Shown: one piece after another, positions 25,753-33,524 of the stretch
Numbering within the stretch: the first letter of the stretch is position 1
Layout of the letters: each line of letters begins with the position of its first letter
NCBI RefSeq assembly: GCF_016650035.1
Contig: NZ_JAENWM010000017.1
Location: 1 to 52,764 of the forward strand
Source: Clostridium sp.
GTDB lineage: Bacteria; Bacillota; Clostridia; Clostridiales; Clostridiaceae
Length of the DNA stretch: 52,764 bases
Reading direction: 5' to 3'
The notes under the pieces: model-generated
Database searches by the model: none
What the model saw: only the letters and a program-made list of their open reading frames with translations
Told to the model about the DNA's origin: nothing
Made by a program: the position numbers and the translations under genes

Positions 25753-27030
25753 CTATATAAGTTTTTCATTAAATATATTGGTTAAATTTAATTTATCTAC
25801 TTTAGCCTTTATTTTCTCTATATCCAAGGTATAAAGTCCCACCTCCTGCATTCTTTTAAAATACTCTGCTCCTGCAAATGTATATCTGTTTGCTCTTCCT
25901 TCTTTAGTTTCTATTCTTTCATTAGCATAAGCTATTATGTCTCCAACAGCTAGTGACCTTGGCAATATAAGTAGAGGCATTCCTAGGTAATTCCTTATAG
26001 CATTTTGACCTGCTAAAGCCCCCGTCATAATAGCTTCAGTATGACCTACAAATAATCCGCCTTTTTCTCCTGCACAGAATAAATTATCTAAACCTACAAC
26101 CTTCATACTGTTTGTTCTTGGGGCTACTGATAAGTATCTTATAGAGTTCCCCTTTCCACCAGCATATGGATCTATATATTTTGCGTTTTCAAGCCCTTTA
26201 ATTTTTCTTAGTTTATCTAATGGGTAATATGAAGTCATAAGTTTAACATGACCTGTATCTAATAGGACTATATTTTCTGCAAACTCTTTAAGAGCATACT
26301 GTTGACATACCTTTAGTTTAAGTTTTCCTAAATTTACATCTTCCTCCGGAACTTTTATAACAGCAACGCCTGTTGCTTCTAGCTCTTTTATAATATCATC
26401 AGCTAGTGATTCCTTAGCTAGTTTACACGAACCGCTAAAAGCACCATATACATCTTCTTCTCTTTCTCCTTTTAAGTCTTCAATACCCGCTCTATAACTT
26501 ATGCTAACTCTTGGACCAAAAGCTGGGCACCTTAACACGCACATTACACATCCATTGCCATATTTTAAGCAGTTACCCATTGGACCTGTAGAACCTGTGG
26601 TTTCTATAAATACATCTGCTTCAATATATTTACCATCTGATAAATATATTCCTTTAATGCTATTACCTTCTTTTTCAACATCTACTACTCTCGTAATAAG
26701 GTTTATTTCTATATCCATAGCTTTTAAATATTTTCCAACTGCCGGTTCAATTTTATTTACATCGTAAAGCCAGGCATTTTTGTGCCCAGGAAATTCAATG
26801 TTTTTATGTCTGCTATTTTCATCCGTCAAATGTATTAAATCTCCCGCCCCCAGTGCTATCATTTCTTCTGAAGCAGTATATCTTCCATTATTCCTCATAA
26901 TGCCACCTACATTTCCCAGCCCCAAAAGCATATCCGTTTTTTCATATAATGCAACCGTAGCACCAGCTTTTTTCGCTATTATTGCTGCGCTACAACCAGA
27001 CCATCCACCGCCAATTATGATAACCTTCAA
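25753..27030 (-). CDS. FAD-dependent oxidoreductase (GidA-like fold)
   Basis: A 425-aa flavoprotein. The N-terminal Rossmann motif is IIIGGGWSGCSAA, and a second FAD segment is NLFCAGEKGGLFVG with TGALAGQNA. Between them a cysteine cluster GNGCVMCVLRCPAFG could bind a metal or FeS cluster or act as a redox centre. The fold recalls GidA/TrmFO-type proteins but the substrate is unknown. TTG at 27030 follows GGGAGG. It overlaps the upstream reductase gene by 4 nt, so the two are coupled. That upstream gene is split by a mobile element, which probably uncouples this gene from its native promoter. Confidence 0.85.
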   Translation of the reverse strand: MKVIIIGGGWSGCSAAIIAKKAGATVALYEKTDMLLGLGNVGGIMRNNGRYTASEEMIALGAGDLIHLTDENSRHKNIEFPGHKNAWLYDVNKIEPAVGKYLKAMDIEINLITRVVDVEKEGNSIKGIYLSDGKYIEADVFIETTGSTGPMGNCLKYGNGCVMCVLRCPAFGPRVSISYRAGIEDLKGEREEDVYGAFSGSCKLAKESLADDIIKELEATGVAVIKVPEEDVNLGKLKLKVCQQYALKEFAENIVLLDTGHVKLMTSYYPLDKLRKIKGLENAKYIDPYAGGKGNSIRYLSVAPRTNSMKVVGLDNLFCAGEKGGLFVGHTEAIMTGALAGQNAIRNYLGMPLLILPRSLAVGDIIAYANERIETKEGRANRYTFAGAEYFKRMQEVGLYTLDIEKIKAKVDKLNLTNIFNEKLI

Positions 27031-27974
27031 AATATTCTCCTCCCTTCTAATACATATTTAGGTTCTGTCTGCATTTTACAAAGCCTTCTTAATTTACGAT
27101 CATTATTTTTTCTTGTACAGCAGCCACATACGCCTTCTCCACAAGACATTTTAGAATTATTACAACAAGAAAATTTAATGTTTTCATCTATATTTTCTAC
27201 AGTCTTCATCATTTCATAATTTAAAACGTCTGCTGCATCACAGTGTACTAATCTAATATCATTATCTTTAATTATTTCATTCAATATGTTATTGAATTCT
27301 TCTGTAATTCTACCACTGCATATAGTATTTACCTGTATAGTTTTTAAAGCATATTTATCTAGATACCCATTCACAAAACTATTTTTATAAGGCGTATTAT
27401 CAAGCACAACTATAATCTCATTATTATTTGAATATAAATGCTTGAGTGCTGGTATCATTGGCGCTTGACCTATACCCCTTGCTACAATTAAACATTTGCT
27501 ATTTTTTATTGTATATATGTTTTGAAGTCCCAAAATACCATTCCAGAATGGTGCTTTTACAAGCATATCTTCACCTTTATTTAACAAATCTAACGCTTTG
27601 GTTTTAACTCCCTTAAGCTCTATAGCAATAGTTACAGTATTATTTCTAGTATCCGTATCCATTATAGATATTGGTGTATCAAAACTTGTTTCTGCGCCTG
27701 GTCTTCTCATAAAAATAAAGCTTCCCGGACGAACTAATTCACTTACTAATTTTTGTGTACCTTGTAGCGTGAGTATAATAATATCATCTTCGAATCTAGT
27801 TTTTTCTAATATTTCCCACTTATAATATTTTCTACCCTCTTTAGCTTTGTAATTGTTTGAAGCATATTCTTGATATATACATACTCCATTCCAGTTACCA
27901 CAGTCACAAAAATTTTTTCCTGCTAGCTGTGAACATAATATACAATCTCCTGTTTCTGCCAGATGGCAAGGACA
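27027..27974 (-). pseudogene. 3' part of split FAD/NAD-binding reductase gene (sulfide/dihydroorotate dehydrogenase-like)
   Basis: Encodes all but the first 15 residues of a ferredoxin-NADP reductase-like protein. It has a Cys-rich N-terminal region (CPCHLAETGDCILC then FCDCGNW and VCIY), a flavin/NAD domain with RGIGQAPMIPALKHL, and a C-terminal 2Fe-2S-like cluster (MSCGEGVCGCC, RLCKM). In the present sequence the frame runs on to a TTG at 27989 with no ribosome binding site; those extra codons belong to the inserted element. The missing start lies at 33417-33464. The joined gene would have 330 codons. Family known from clostridia; redox partner unknown. Confidence 0.85.
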
Positions 27975-27997
27975 TGGTTGAGACACCAAAGTGCGAT
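27950..27997. other. Left attachment site of the serine-recombinase element (attL)
   Basis: Host side: reductase gene sequence up to TGT/ACA. Crossover trinucleotide ACA at 27972-27974. Element side: arm GGTTGAGACACC...GTGCG at 27976-27995. The element arm is the imperfect inverse (14/20) of the arm at the other end. Confidence 0.8.
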
Positions 27998-28160
27998 ATT
28001 TTTTGTGTAAAAGTATAATCTATAAATGATACAGTTGTTTAGTTTTAATATTTTGACATAATATTATATAAACCTCCATAAAAAATATTGAAAACACTAT
28101 AATTCTGGGTTAAACTAATCTTTGAGATAAAAATTTATATTTGAAAAGAGGATTGATTAA

Positions 28161-28820
28161 TTGAAGATTGTTTTTAAGAAATTATTGCCCCTAATACTTA
28201 TTGGATGTGTTCCACTTTCTAATTTGTTTTATTGGGGCCTAAATAATACCGAAAGAGGAGTTTACGATTTAACTACTGATTTAGATAGAGTTTTACCACT
28301 TATAAAAATATTTATAATACCCTATATGACTTTATGGTTTTTCTAAGCCATTTGTTTTGTTTACTTATGTTACAAAAACAGAAGTGTTTATTATAAGATT
28401 ATGATTACCTTGTGCTTATGTTATGTTGTTACTTTTATAACTTATTACTTTTTTCAAACAACTGTTCCAAGGCCTCTTGTTACAGGAGATGACATATTTT
28501 CTAAACTTATTTTATTTACTTATAATTCTGATGCGCCTTTTAATTGTTTCCCAAGCATTCATGTAATTACTGCATACTTAGCTATGAAAGGAATTAATGC
28601 AACTGATGCTATTAAAAGGATTAAATTTCCAGTTAACATAGTTGGATTTCTTATTATCATCTCCACTGAATTTGTAAAACAACATGTTATAATGGATATA
28701 TTTTTTGCAATAATTTTATGTGATGTGATTTTGAATTGCACTAATTATATAGAAGTCCACTACAAATTATATAATTCCAATAAATCACTTAGCTCTCACA
28801 ATCAAAATATTGATCAATAA
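28161..28820 (+). pseudogene. PAP2-family phosphatase gene with an in-frame stop
   Basis: TTG at 28161 after AAAGAGGA opens a frame that reads 61 codons, meets TAA at 28344, and continues in the same frame to 28820. The downstream part carries the PAP2 motifs: TVPRPLV (RP of motif 1), CFPSIHV (PSxH of motif 2) and STEFVKQHVIMD (H...D of motif 3), in the arrangement of the AUR1-like PAP2_3 group, with several membrane helices. The whole would be about 219 aa. A single TAA breaks it. It lies at the left end of the element. It is either a decayed gene or a single-base error. Confidence 0.78.
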
Positions 28821-28825
28821 CATAA

Positions 28826-28862
28826 ATCAAAGGCTACTGAAAATTTTCAGCAGCCTTTGGTT
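28826..28862. terminator. Bidirectional terminator between PAP2-type gene and clpE
   Basis: Arms at 28828-28843 and 28844-28859 (CAAAGGCTACTGAAAA and near-complement) form a 14-bp stem with one mismatch and A/T flanks. It separates two convergent genes. Confidence 0.8.
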
Positions 28863-31195
28863 TATATTATAACAACTTTACCATTTACTAACCCCATTGA
28901 TATTTTTGATCCCGCTCTAAATTCGTTTTTAAGATATTGTTCTGCTATCTCATCTTCAATATATTTTTGAATAGTTCTTCTAAGTGGCCTTGCGCCGAAT
29001 TTTTCATCGTATCCAGTTGCTAAAATAAAATCCTTTACCTCTTCTGACACATCCAATGTAATATTCTTTTCTTGTGCCTCATCGACTACTTCTTTAATCA
29101 TTAAATCAACTATTTTTCGAAGTTCTTGCTTTTCAAGTAGGGTAAATACAATCGTTTCATCTACTCTATTTAAAAATTCCGGCCTAAAGGTTTCTTTTAA
29201 AGCATCCTTTACATGCGCCGATAATACATCATAATTATCTTGAACAAAACCAATGCCACTTGTTTTAAACTGAGTCCCTGCATTTGATGTCATTATTATT
29301 ACGGTATTTTCAAAGAAAACAGTTCTGCCTTGACTATCCGTTAGTCTTCCGTCTTCTAGAATTTGGAGCAGCATGTTAAATAGATCCGGATGAGCCTTCT
29401 CTATTTCATCTAAAAGAATTACTGAATAAGGCTTTCTTTTCACCTTTTCCGTTAACTGACCACCTTGATCATAGCCTACATATCCTGGTGGTGCACCAAT
29501 CAGCTTAGAAACTGTATGTTTTTCCATATATTCAGACATATCTATACGAATTAATGCTTCTTCACTTCCAAAAAGTTCACAAGATAGTGCTTTAACTAGC
29601 TCTGTTTTTCCGACCCCCGTTGGTCCTACAAAAATAAAAGAAGAGGGCTTTTTCTTTTTTCTAAATCCCGAACGGTTGCGTCTGATTGCTCTTGATAAAC
29701 TAATAATAGCCTCATTTTGACCTACAACTCGTTTGTGTAGCCTACTCTCCAAATTTAATAACTTGCTAGCCTCTTTTTCTGTAATCTTCTGAATTGGAAT
29801 TTTAGTCCATGACTCAATGACAAAAGCAACATCCTCTAATGTAATTTGAACTTCATTACATGTTTTTTCAATTTCATTAATATCTTCATTTATTTTGCAA
29901 AATTTCGTTTTATATTCTGCAGCTTTTTTAAAGTTCGCAGTATCATCTGCTTCTTTCTGTGATGCCTTAATTTCTTCTAATTCCTCTTTGAGTCCCGCTA
30001 GTTCCACAAGACCTTTGTTTTTTAAATTAGCTCTAGAACCCGCTTCATCAATAACATCTATAGCTTTGTCTGGAAGAAATCTATCTGTTATATACCTCTC
30101 AGATAAATTTACGACTTCCCGTATTACTTCATCAGATATTTTAACTTTATGATACTCTTCATAGTATACTCTGATTCCCTTTAAGATTTCTATTGTCTCA
30201 TCTATACTTGGTTCTTCAACTAGTACTGGTTGAAATCTTCGCTCAAGGGCCGCGTCTTTTTCTATATATTTTCTATATTCTTCTAATGTAGTAACCCCAA
30301 TGACTTGTATTTCTCCCTTAGCTAACGCCGGTTTCAAAATATTGGCTGCATTCATTGAACCACCTTGAACTTCACCCGCACCCATTATATTATGTACCTC
30401 GTCAATAACTAATATAATATTTCCACTTTCCTTAGCTTCTTCAATAATTGACTTCATACGGCCTTCAAATTGTCCTCTAAACTGTGTACCTGCAACCACA
30501 GCGGTGAGATCAAGCAGATAAACCTCTGAATCGAATAATTTTTCTGGAACTTGCTTTTCCGCAATTCTCACTGCTAACCCCTCTGCAATAGCTGTTTTAC
30601 CTACACCAGCTTCTCCAATTAATATAGGATTATTTTTGGTTCTTCTATTTAATATTTGTACCACTCTATCAATTTCACTATGCCTTCCTATAACTTTATC
30701 TATACCCTTTTGATTTGCTTTATTTGTTAGATTTATCCCATATGTATCTAAGTGTTTTCTCTTCTTTTTAAACCAACTTTTCTTTGATTTATCATCATCC
30801 GATTGTTTACTCTTTGGGGTATCCTCCACTTCATCTTCTACAAAATCCTTGTTTTCATCTTTAGCTCCAAATAAACCGCTAAAAACATTTCCAATTGATT
30901 TTTTTCCTTCACCTTCTTCATCATCCATATCTGAAATATCCAAATCCTCAAGGTTCATGCCTTCTAAGTTCATATCTTCCAAATTCATGCCTTTAAACAT
31001 ATTACCCATTTGATCATTTAAGTTTTCAATATCATCAGAGGATATTCCCGCTTGTTGCATTAGTTGATCCATTACAGGGATGCCCCTCTTCTTAGCACAC
31101 TCCATGCATAGAGCTACTGTTTCAGTTTTTCCATTTTCAACTTTTGATGTTAAAATCATTGCTATATTTTTTTTACATATATCACATAATTTCAT
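28862..31195 (-). CDS. clpE: ClpE-type AAA+ unfoldase with N-terminal zinc finger
   Basis: A Hsp100 ATPase of 777 aa. The N-terminus has two CxxC pairs (LCDICKK and LCMECAKKR), the ClpE/McsA-type zinc finger, instead of the ClpC double-Clp N domain. An acidic spacer with [10 protein letters not shown] repeats follows. D1 has GEAGVGKT (about residue 192) and VIDEVHNI; the linker carries a UVR-like coiled segment; D2 has GPTGVGKTE (about 522) and LLDEIEKAH. The loop GIGFVQ matches the (L/I/V)GF ClpP-binding tripeptide, so it probably feeds ClpP. The ATG at 31195 has GGAG 9 nt upstream. It lies inside the element, behind a 74-aa gene. No CtsR operator was found upstream. Confidence 0.9.
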
Positions 31196-31243
31196 ATAAA
31201 TCATCTCCATATTTTATGTTGTATTTAATACTATAATATAATG

Positions 31244-31468
31244 TTATATTAGTATATCATCTTTTAGTAGAATTTGCTTCGTATATTCAGATTGTTTCTT
31301 TTTTATTAATAAAACACCACCATTCATTAGCTTTTCTATTAATTCGTTTATTTCTTGTAGCGAAAGCTTTGAAGCTATTATTCTTGCAATAATCCTTGTA
31401 TACTGCTGAGTCAAAAGTTCCCTCTGTTCTTCATTTAATTCTGATATAATCGTAGATTTAACTTTCAT
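31244..31468 (-). CDS. 74-aa helical protein of unknown function upstream of clpE
   Basis: Begins MKVKSTIISELNEEQ and is predicted to be mostly helical, with a basic/aliphatic heptad-like middle (RIIARIIASKLSLQEINEL) and a LLIKKKQSEY tail. GGGGGAG precedes the ATG by 5 nt. It is 48 nt upstream of clpE on the same strand and divergent from the recombinase, so it may belong to either system. I do not recognise the family. Candidate roles, by position only, are a Clp partner or a recombination directionality factor. Confidence 0.7.
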   Translation of the reverse strand: MKVKSTIISELNEEQRELLTQQYTRIIARIIASKLSLQEINELIEKLMNGGVLLIKKKQSEYTKQILLKDDILI

Positions 31469-31648
31469 TTATTCTCCCCCAAGTAAACTATTATATTATA
31501 GTATGCTGCATGAATTTCAGTGTTACAAAATGTATATACATAAATATATTTAGTTAAATTCTTTTTTACGTAATATTATTTTTTTAAGACACATATGTTT
31601 ATCTTGTAACTCTTAGTATTTTAAATCAATTGTTAAGGAGTGTGTAAA

Positions 31649-33247
31649 TTGAAAATAGCAGCTATATACTCCAGAAAATCAAAGATTACAGTAAGTGGAG
31701 AATCAATTATAAACCAAATTGAACTATGTAGGCATGAAGGCACACATTTAGGCATTAATGAATTTATAATATACGAGGATGAAGGTTTTTCAGGAAAAAA
31801 TATAAAAAGGCCTCAATTTCAAAAAATGCTTGTTGATGCAAAAGAAAATAAATTTCAGGTGCTTATTTGTTATAGACTTGATAGAATTAGTAGAAACATA
31901 TCTGATTTTTCTACTCTTATAAAAAAGCTGGATAGTTTACACATAAGCTTTATAAGTGTTAACGAGAAGTTTGATACCTCAACACCTATGGGACGTGCCA
32001 TGATGTATATTTCCTCAGTTTTTGCACAGTTAGAACGTGAAACTATTGGCGAGCGAGTTCGCGATAATATGTTAGAACTATCTAAAACCGGAAGATGGCT
32101 CGGTGGACAAACGCCTCTAGGTTATGAAAGTAAGAAAATATCATATTTGGATTTCGATCACAAAGAAAAAAACATGTATGGTTTGTCACCTATAAAAAAA
32201 GAGTTAGCAGTGGTGAAAATTATTTATGATAAATATTTAGAATATAAATCTATTAACCAAGTTTTTATCTACCTTTTTAAAAATAACATCAAAACAAAAT
32301 ATGGTGCTGACTTTACTAAGAAAAGAATTCAACTCATATTGAGAACCCCTCTTTATGTTAGAGCAAATGAAGATGTTATGAAATATCTTGATTATATTGG
32401 CATGAATGTCATTGGAAACACTAATGAAAAATATGGTATTTTAACTTATAACAAAAGTAAAGGCACCCGAACTAAACGAGTTATAACGGAATGGATTGCA
32501 GCTGTTTCCTTCCATGAAGGGATTATTGCTAGCACGTCTTGGCTTAAAGTTCAACAAATACTAGACCAAAATAAAAACAAAGCTCCAAGACTTGGCACCT
32601 CTGCTTCTGCATTACTTACTGGAACCTTAAAATGTTCTAAATGTGGTAAGAGTATGATTGTTAAACATGGTCATATTAGTTCAGAAACCAATAAAAAAAT
32701 TCAGTATTATGTCTGCAGTACTAAAGATTATTCAAGGGGCCTTCGATGTAATAATCCTAATATCCGTGTAGATGAACTTGAAATTATAGTTATAGATTAT
32801 TTAAAAAGTATGACTATTGACAAGACTCTTTTATTAAAAGAATTAACTATTATAAAATCCGAACTCCTTAAAAACGTCGACCTGCAATGCGAAATAACTA
32901 GTCTTCCAACACAAATAAAGATAAAACAAGACCAAATTGACGTTCTAGTAAATCATTTATCTTTAGAGAATGACATTTCCAAATATATAAGCCCTCAAAT
33001 TTATAAATTGGGAAATGAATTAGAAGAATTAACACATAAATATGAAATTTTAAAAGCAAGTTCCTATGAATATAATAAAGATAATAATAATTCAAATATT
33101 TTTTTTACTTCCTCAAATAATTTTTTGGATATTATCGATCTCTTAGATTTTAATAATAAACGACTTTTAATTAATAATATTGTAAACTCAATATTTTGGG
33201 ATGGTGCAAAAGGTGAAGTATTAATAAATCTAATTTCTTTAAATTAA
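31649..33247 (+). CDS. Large serine recombinase (integrase)
   Basis: A 532-aa site-specific recombinase. The resolvase-type catalytic domain (1-145) starts with IYSRKS (nucleophile Ser11 in YxRxS), then YEDEGFSG, YRLDRISRN and SSVFAQLERETIGERV. The Recombinase domain follows from WLGGQTPLGY to about residue 300. A zinc ribbon lies at about 328-375 (LKCSKCGKSM ... YYVCSTKD ... LRCNNP), then a coiled coil and C-terminal tail. TTG at 31649 is chosen: AAGGAG sits 8 nt upstream, whereas the GTG at 31640 overlaps that site. It reads toward the right att site 170 nt away. Confidence 0.93.
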   Translation: MKIAAIYSRKSKITVSGESIINQIELCRHEGTHLGINEFIIYEDEGFSGKNIKRPQFQKMLVDAKENKFQVLICYRLDRISRNISDFSTLIKKLDSLHISFISVNEKFDTSTPMGRAMMYISSVFAQLERETIGERVRDNMLELSKTGRWLGGQTPLGYESKKISYLDFDHKEKNMYGLSPIKKELAVVKIIYDKYLEYKSINQVFIYLFKNNIKTKYGADFTKKRIQLILRTPLYVRANEDVMKYLDYIGMNVIGNTNEKYGILTYNKSKGTRTKRVITEWIAAVSFHEGIIASTSWLKVQQILDQNKNKAPRLGTSASALLTGTLKCSKCGKSMIVKHGHISSETNKKIQYYVCSTKDYSRGLRCNNPNIRVDELEIIVIDYLKSMTIDKTLLLKELTIIKSELLKNVDLQCEITSLPTQIKIKQDQIDVLVNHLSLENDISKYISPQIYKLGNELEELTHKYEILKASSYEYNKDNNNSNIFFTSSNNFLDIIDLLDFNNKRLLINNIVNSIFWDGAKGEVLINLISLN

Positions 33248-33271
33248 ATCATCATCTGCGAAGCTACAATA

Positions 33272-33379
33272 TTAACAACTTCAGAAGGAGACTTATACAC
33301 CCACTAAAGTTTTTTATTTGTTATAGCATGTAACTCCCACTTATAGAAGTGGGAGACTTTCCTTCTGAAATGTTGTTAA
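33272..33379. repeat. Long imperfect inverted repeat with nested hairpin
   Basis: TTAACAAC + TTCAGAAGGA (33272-33289) pairs with TCCTTCTGAA + AT bulge + GTTGTTAA (33360-33379). Nested inside is CTCCCACTT/AAGTGGGAG (33334-33355) with a 4-nt loop. Next to it, CACTAAACTG/CAGTTTAGTG (33382-33408) forms another 10-bp hairpin that overlaps the recombinase arm. The nested hairpin resembles those at IS200/IS605 ends, but no transposase is present. It could also be the recombinase terminator or a small RNA. This covers most of the 33248-33585 gap. Confidence 0.75.
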
Positions 33380-33383
33380 ACCA

Positions 33384-33467
33384 CTAAACTGGGTGTCGCA
33401 GTTTAGTGTAGCTAGCACAAAATTCACTTCCTACATCAATACAATCATAAGGTTCGTAACTCATCAT
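33384..33467 (-). pseudogene. 5' part of split FAD/NAD-binding reductase gene
   Basis: GGAGG at 33473-33477 precedes ATG codons at 33467 and 33464. The native codons run to the TGT at 33417-33419 and read MSYEPYDCIDVGSEFC; beyond it the frame enters the element and stops at 33384. Joined to the CPCHLAE part at 27974, the result is GSEFC-PCHLAE, in frame with no extra or missing bases. It lies downstream of the DD-carboxypeptidase gene. Confidence 0.8.
33395..33441. other. Right attachment site of the serine-recombinase element (attR)
   Basis: Element arm CGCAGTTTAGTGTAGCTAGC at 33397-33416, crossover ACA at 33417-33419, then host sequence that encodes the start of the split reductase on the minus strand. 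Confidence 0.8.
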
Positions 33468-33495
33468 TATTACCTCCAATGCACTATACTATTAA

Positions 33496-33524
33496 AATAT
33501 ATAAAAATCATAAAATTGTTACAA
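33496..33524 (-). promoter_or_regulatory. Candidate promoter stranded with the 5' gene fragment
   Basis: On the minus strand TTGTAA (33519-33524) and TATATT (33496-33501) are spaced 17 nt and lie about 30 nt before the fragment's ATG. The surrounding sequence is AT-rich, so chance matches are likely. Confidence 0.4.

Follow-up and report, generated by a model that had tools for sequence, protein, structure and literature searches.

A large serine recombinase element that splits a reductase gene of Clostridium, in an operon recurrently targeted across the Clostridiaceae

The split reductase gene and its element

The window analyzed here, a stretch of 52,764 nucleotides from Clostridium sp. (contig NZ_JAENWM010000017.1, assembly GCF_016650035.1), contains a reductase gene that is split by an element carrying a large serine recombinase (LSR; Table 1). 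An earlier note on this DNA, made from the sequence alone, had placed a ribosome binding site (RBS) and the first 16 reductase codons about 5.4 kb away from the remainder of the gene on the same strand, and these positions are borne out. The element comprises the 5445 bp between two plus-strand CA dinucleotides at 27973–27974 and 33418–33419 (TG on the coding strand), which fall inside the two ACA copies seen by the note at the element ends. By NCBIfam, the truncated reductase open reading frame (ORF) belongs to PRK05802 (NF004470; 424.5 bits, cut-off 313), with a match that covers only positions 13–329 of the 330 of the profile. As proposed, the split gene forms an operon with a flavin adenine dinucleotide (FAD) oxidoreductase gene, which it overlaps by 4 nt, and a D-Ala-D-Ala carboxypeptidase gene lies upstream. 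An intact FAD oxidoreductase paralogue is found elsewhere in the same genome (G000 C24:13566–14840; 76 % to the G001 protein). The whole window had no match in Rfam.

That removal of the element restores the reading frame was judged from natural whole homologues and not from an artificially joined sequence. In a genus sample of 17 genomes, the four with a whole reductase gene (G001, G003, G004, and G011) encode MSYEPYDCIDVGSEFCPCHLAETGDC in one frame, i. e., all four share the N-terminus predicted by the note. The case proved stronger than the note had made it: 11 of the 17 genomes, the window's included, contain an LSR (72–77 % identity to the window's) together with a reductase devoid of its N-terminus, and in all 11 the exon MSYEPYDCIDVGSE(F/Y)C lies detached, along with its RBS, on the other side of the element (in G013 on a different contig). 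Only the far half was found in G009, and neither half in G014 (51 % complete). As the same split, at the same base, is present in 11 genomes, chance or an assembly error is excluded. Eight carriers have named records, for example, C. bowmanii, C. tagluense, C. algoriphilum, C. lacusfryxellense, and C. psychrophilum, which we take to be grouped with C. estertheticum.

In the 11 carriers, purifying selection acts on the detached exon 1. Its eight distinct changes include a single nonsynonymous one compared to 6.5 expected (none of 20000 simulations was as low), and its mean pairwise identity among the carriers amounts to 0.95 vs. 0.72 for the adjoining 48 bp inside the element. The median ratios of nonsynonymous to synonymous substitution rates (dN/dS) are 0.13 for the LSR, 0.10 for the Clp-type ATPase of the element, and 0.07 for the FAD oxidoreductase (10 genomes each), as well as 0.16 for the PAP2 gene (nine genomes, window excluded) and 0.36 for the small ORF (nine genomes). 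In eight pairs of genomes elsewhere that have the same split, detached exons of the FAD oxidoreductase or reductase gave dN/dS values of 0.03–0.16 without stops, and middle exons, the use of which requires two excisions, gave 0.041–0.045, with dS near saturation in some pairs.

These data bear on two alternatives. According to the first, exon 2 would form an entire gene that has a start of its own, whereas exon 1 would encode a peptide that is unrelated or due to chance; indeed, the CPC codons are preceded by some TTG, GTG, or ATG in frame in 10 of 12 carriers. Nevertheless, a good start is missing in all 12, no start reaching an RBS score of at least 5 (maximum 6) and two carriers (G002 and G008) lacking any in-frame start, while exon 1 corresponds to the N-terminus with which the four whole homologues begin. 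We thus assign scarcely any probability to exon 2 as a gene of its own, and the case that the note had named against itself, homologues starting at the TTG near 27989, is not borne out. According to the second alternative, a plain mobile element would have targeted a spare conserved gene that is dead in the carriers. This would fit the integrase type of the LSR by PHROGs (phrog_95), the existence of a phage LSR with 45 % identity, and the possible prophage nature of large elements at other sites, but purifying selection on exon 1, the middle exons, and the RBS as well as the one-base position common to 11 species refute it on present data and render it very improbable.

The payload is larger than the minimal one claimed by the note: apart from the recombinase, the element carries a PAP2 gene, a 74-aa ORF, and the gene of a Clp-type AAA+ ATPase of 782 aa. 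The CxxC pairs seen by eye at the N-terminus of the ATPase suggest a zinc finger. Among the scanned element ORFs of at least 60 aa, no Pfam or NCBIfam match to phage structural or lysis genes was obtained. The LSR matches SprA/YokA structures (9dxh, E 1e-11) and remains far under the curated cut-offs of CcrB (142.6 of 900 bits), CcrC (94.9 of 900), CcrA (76.2 of 700), and XisF (121.4 of 375), and the staphylococcal cassette chromosome (ccr) and heterocyst (XisF) element classes were therefore rejected.

The inner halves of the attachment (att) sites form a conserved dyad on TG with 15-bp arms and 8-bp spacers, which recurs, in varied form, in 12 sequences of the recombinase side and 13 of the far side. 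The typical recombinase-side form reads GAATTT TG TCCTAGCC ACACTAAACTGCGAT and the typical far-side form ATCGCAGTTTGGTGT CTCAACCA TG TCCTTGCC. Taken as an inverted repeat, the arms of the window match at 12 of 15 positions; inverted arms around a shared core, as in a skin-like element, are hence present. In G031, which belongs to another genus, the base following TG differs on the recombinase side, placing the crossover at TG. Adjoining the recombinase-side arm, a repeated sequence of some 140 bp whose ends are inverted (33242–33381) resembles, by eye, a miniature inverted-repeat transposable element; six further copies of at least 126 bp (89–92 % identity) and six shorter matches occur elsewhere in the genome, and it is absent at the corresponding place in other carriers.

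Table 1. Features of the split operon and the element; positions refer to the window unless a locus is named.
Feature	Position	Strand	Remarks
Reductase exon 1, codons 1–16, MSYEPYDCIDVGSEFC	33417..33464	-	RBS GGAGG at 33477–33473
Reductase exon 2, remaining PRK05802 reductase	27027..27974	-	NF004470; starts at the TGT codon shared with exon 1
FAD oxidoreductase, second operon gene	25753..27030	-	Pfam GIDA and FAD_oxidored
LSR, 531 aa	31652..33247	+	Pfam Resolvase, Recombinase, Zn_ribbon_recom
74-aa ORF, divergent from LSR, candidate recombination directionality factor	31244..31468	-	49–54 aa in 10 other carriers
Clp-type AAA+ ATPase, 782 aa, cargo	28862..31210	-	Pfam/NCBIfam matches
PAP2-superfamily gene, two ORFs (61 + 139 aa), cargo	28161..28820	+	One ORF of 219–241 aa in other carriers
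attP far half	27973..27997		CA core 27973–27974, 8-bp spacer, 15-bp arm 27983–27997; same form in 13 genomes
attP recombinase-side half	33395..33419		15-bp arm 33395–33409, 8-bp spacer, CA core 33418–33419; same form in 12 genomes
Exon-1 promoter-like site	33490..33522	-	GTAACA, spacer, ATATTTTAATA
Small-ORF promoter-like site	31494..31526	-	GTAACA, spacer, CATACTATAATA; -10 resembles sigK promoters
asd genes of other residue-16 elements	L167:4607-5692; L168:6427-7512		NF006416

In a 17-row tree built from the two host proteins, the four whole-gene species fall inside the carriers (support 96/90 and 100/99), which indicates that the element was lost there. In these species (L071–L074), Clp and PAP2 genes are located upstream of the intact reductase gene in inverted order and without LSR or small ORF; att-arm remnants that would account for this relocation were not found in any of the four. 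The counter-case raised by the note, i. e., close relatives with the same intervening genes in place and no split, thus did not hold, since these two genes lie outside the reductase gene and are inverted.

Recurrent splitting of the operon across the family

Related LSRs (approximately 40–55 % identity) occupy the same two-gene operon across the family. Both split parts were found on one contig in 43 of 206 family genomes, or in 55 if different contigs are included (G189 being counted once), based on tblastn pieces sorted by hand; between roughly a fifth and a quarter of the genomes searched accordingly have this one small operon split, at recurrent sites. For the FAD oxidoreductase, 48 of the 206 genomes were searched, chosen for a weak best match, so that splits behind a full-length paralogue can be missed. 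The gene was split in 37 of them, at residue ~86 (14 genomes), ~263 (17), or ~334 (15), with the pieces on one contig in 26 and on different contigs in 11; one-sided cases such as G086, G100, G109, G110, and G112 were dropped. An LSR adjoins a piece of the gene in 31 of the 37, and none was seen for G079, G089, G105, G115, G116, and G124. Two of the three main cuts are combined in G075, G076, G135 (C. magnum), G160, G168, G177 (C. acidisoli), and G193, G189 pairs the ~334 cut with that of the reductase, and in G190 the FAD gene lies in four pieces with three LSRs. More distant LSRs (33–36 %) mark an extra site near residue 10 in G178, G075, and G076.

Reductase exon 1 was seen detached at residue 16 in 19 genomes, namely the 11 of the genus and eight others (G031, G129, G188, G189, G060, G028, G143, and G029, i. 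e., Oceanirhabdus L096), a count that leaves out G009 (far half only) as well as G144, G145, G207, G134, and G018 (N-terminus unmatched). The residue-16 elements of G188 and G189 contain asd, encoding aspartate-semialdehyde dehydrogenase (472.8 and 471.3 bits, cut-off 232).

Nearly all inspected junctions of the FAD gene (10 of 14 at ~86, 11 of 17 at ~263, and 9 of 15 at ~334) have inverted arms and a shared core, with one side of G070 at ~263 as exception. Mapped on an 86-LSR tree, the site labels require eight changes vs. 48 in shuffles, in agreement with a tree of 64 rows; the ~86 and ~263 groups each form one clade, which the ~334 and residue-16 groups do not. Related LSRs outside the operon (L097 and L125) end in an apparent pilus/type II secretion ATPase gene, at the Walker A motif as judged by eye.

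A C. difficile record deposited as 'plasmid' (NZ_CP149734.1, L228; circular, 23987 bp) combines the eut operon with an LSR that belongs to this group and a 58-aa ORF divergent from it, and two further circular records of like size exist in this species. In the attP of NZ_CP149734.1, inverted arms flank AGCAGAAGC, the core of the ~334 site, from which we infer that the record is an excised form of a ~334-site element assembled as a circle.

Promoters, a candidate directionality factor, and proposed excision

Ahead of exon 1, GTAACA followed by 13–18 bases and ATAnnnTA occurs at 33 of 52 operon loci, to which a few genomes contribute two, compared to 0.07 expected; GTAACA alone occurs at 38 of the 52 (1.9 expected; 29/38 outside the genus). 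A stricter pattern gave five matches in G000 (four in the reversed control) and five in G015 (none in the control), including in both genomes the exon-1 and the small-ORF sites. GTAACA fits the SpoIIID box proposed for C. difficile, where, according to PMC5025042, the skin directionality factor gene is controlled by sigmaE and SpoIIID with the box TGTAACAAT. SpoIIID was present in all 16 genomes tested. CATAnnnT, which resembles the -10 of the small-ORF site (CATACTATAATA), was found ahead of sigK in 12 of 14 genomes. A text search of two C. difficile sporulation papers (PMC3789829 and PMC3789822) yielded no passage on expression of the operon.

The 74-aa ORF is a candidate recombination directionality factor (RDF). 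A profile of this small ORF, compared with 37416 ORFs, picked up similar ones (E 9e-6 to 0.5) in Caloramator and close to LSRs at each of the four main sites. Most of these are oriented divergently to the LSR, and CATAnnnT precedes 13 of 22 (3.4 expected). The family gave only chance-level matches to Pfam and PHROGs and no credible kin in the PDB, the YokA-YotN chain being unmatched.

Taken together, this is a gene-intervening LSR element whose excision very probably repairs the gene at some point, the mother cell being the most likely place. We consider it likely that it is a skin-like element excised there during sporulation by its LSR and a putative RDF; selection on the detached exons and the promoters lends programmed excision indirect support, and we infer that excision occurs, when and in which cell it would do so, and what the small ORF would contribute. 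In such a scenario, the LSR would keep the element integrated at the TG of reductase codon 16 until, during sporulation, the small element protein, made from a mother-cell sigma-type promoter, would switch the LSR to excision. The excised circle would carry a symmetric attP, and exon 2 would regain exon 1 together with the promoter of the latter, so that production of the reductase/FAD oxidoreductase pair would be late and confined to the mother cell, whereas the forespore would retain the element and pass it on with its cargo.

Several observations weigh against excision during sporulation. For the window's element, no reads, no circle, and no repaired junction were found, and four related species live without it. 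At sigK (3/14) and spoIIID promoters (4/16, all four overlapping the RBS), GTAACA is scarce; these promoters failed as internal positive control and leave the SpoIIID-box reading an analogy, and the exon-1 -10 of the carriers lacks the initial C of CATAnnnTA. GTAACA is likewise rare ahead of small ORFs at other sites (1/22) and was rejected as a general mark of candidate RDFs outside the genus, while CATAnnnT is also enriched before LSRs (11/40 vs. 5.05 expected), albeit less than before small ORFs (Fisher P 0.028). Finally, the presence of the FAD gene in 186 of 193 SpoIIE-positive but only 2 of 13 SpoIIE-negative family genomes, which in itself speaks for a link to sporulation, is confounded by descent; here, 18 genomes count as absent (15 unmatched plus G101, G102, and G214 with E >1e-6) and 'present' may include a paralogue (G227).

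Excision could conceivably also take place outside sporulation, at a low level in growing cells, a minority of which would then have a working gene (bet-hedging or 'active lysogeny', known from the comK prophages of Listeria). The selection on the exons requires excision at some stage only, the LSR is devoid of a GTAACA-type promoter and may thus be made in growth, and the related C. difficile element is represented by three circular records in assemblies. On the other hand, both the operon and the small ORF have sporulation-type promoters, and loss of conserved cargo genes would presumably be costly to growing cells, which is why we regard this scenario as unlikely.

Beyond the skin-like element of the window, we lean, with less assurance, towards a broader view in which a mother-cell redox operon serves as a docking station for a radiation of LSR elements in the Clostridiaceae and C. 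difficile, the latter being included on account of its attP core and LSR kinship. The enzyme would then be assembled by several excisions in a cell destined to die, amounting to soma/germline DNA elimination with multi-exon genes and a new RDF family, and elements retained in the spore lineage would have taken in conserved host genes such as Clp, PAP2, asd, and the C. difficile eut operon. It seems that elements are able to pick up genes of the host and to become difficult to lose. The uncharacterised redox pair (PRK05802 and FAD oxidoreductase) is predicted to act late in the mother cell, and such split genes are probably not pseudogenes.

Relation to known intervening elements

Programmed excision in spore formers is known for a handful of genes (sigK, spsM, gerE, spoVFB, and yabG). 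The likeness to skin claimed by the note holds by anatomy, as a host gene is split by an element encoding a site-specific recombinase. Skin in sigK (B. subtilis; skinCd of C. difficile with the LSR CD1231 and the RDF CD1234) shares the LSR and the in-frame split of a host gene, and in C. difficile a small separate RDF gene, not the LSR, is under mother-cell control (PMC5025042); in contrast, the window element resides in another host gene, within an operon cut at several sites, and has no recognised phage genes, and its small ORF is an RDF candidate only. Gin in gerE (B. cereus, GirC/GirX) is likewise a non-phage element with an LSR and a small factor, and a sporulation gene is restored, as would be the case here, but it spans 28.6 kb, has three recombinases, and was recently transferred (PMC5595907), as compared to 5.4 kb and 11 species here. 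Yin in yabG (C. botulinum) lies in a Clostridium sporulation gene, as proposed here, and has a small RDF candidate with a possible SigK promoter, and its circle was seen by PCR; it differs in being described from one strain and in a different gene (PMC10747680). SPbeta in spsM (B. subtilis, SprA/SprB) provides a parallel to the proposed process in its LSR-driven restoration of a sporulation gene (PMC4191935) and, unlike the window element, is an active phage. The cutting of one orthologue at several places has a parallel in cyanobacterial heterocyst elements, with four in nifD (PMC4874684), which belong to another phylum and programme and whose XisF the window LSR matches with only 121 of 375 bits.

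While this kind of element is known, recurrent multi-site targeting of one operon, conserved host-gene cargo, and a candidate RDF family are new here; the open-licence part of PMC yielded nothing on the operon as a target, on this element, or on C. difficile eut circles. The operon offers many natural replicates for studying the timing of excision, LSR target change within one operon, and the evolution of directionality factors.

Three minor observations concern sporulation genes of other genomes in the family. A second SpoIIID-like gene lies closely upstream of the split operon in G160 (C2:1925237–1925467), and another, under the cut-off, inside the ~334-site element of G178 (C3:303703–303936). 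In G135 (C. magnum, C1:1379974–1380390) and G178 (C. akagii, C2:80600–81019), sigK was found as residues ~1–143 only, so sigK itself may be split there by a skin-type element.

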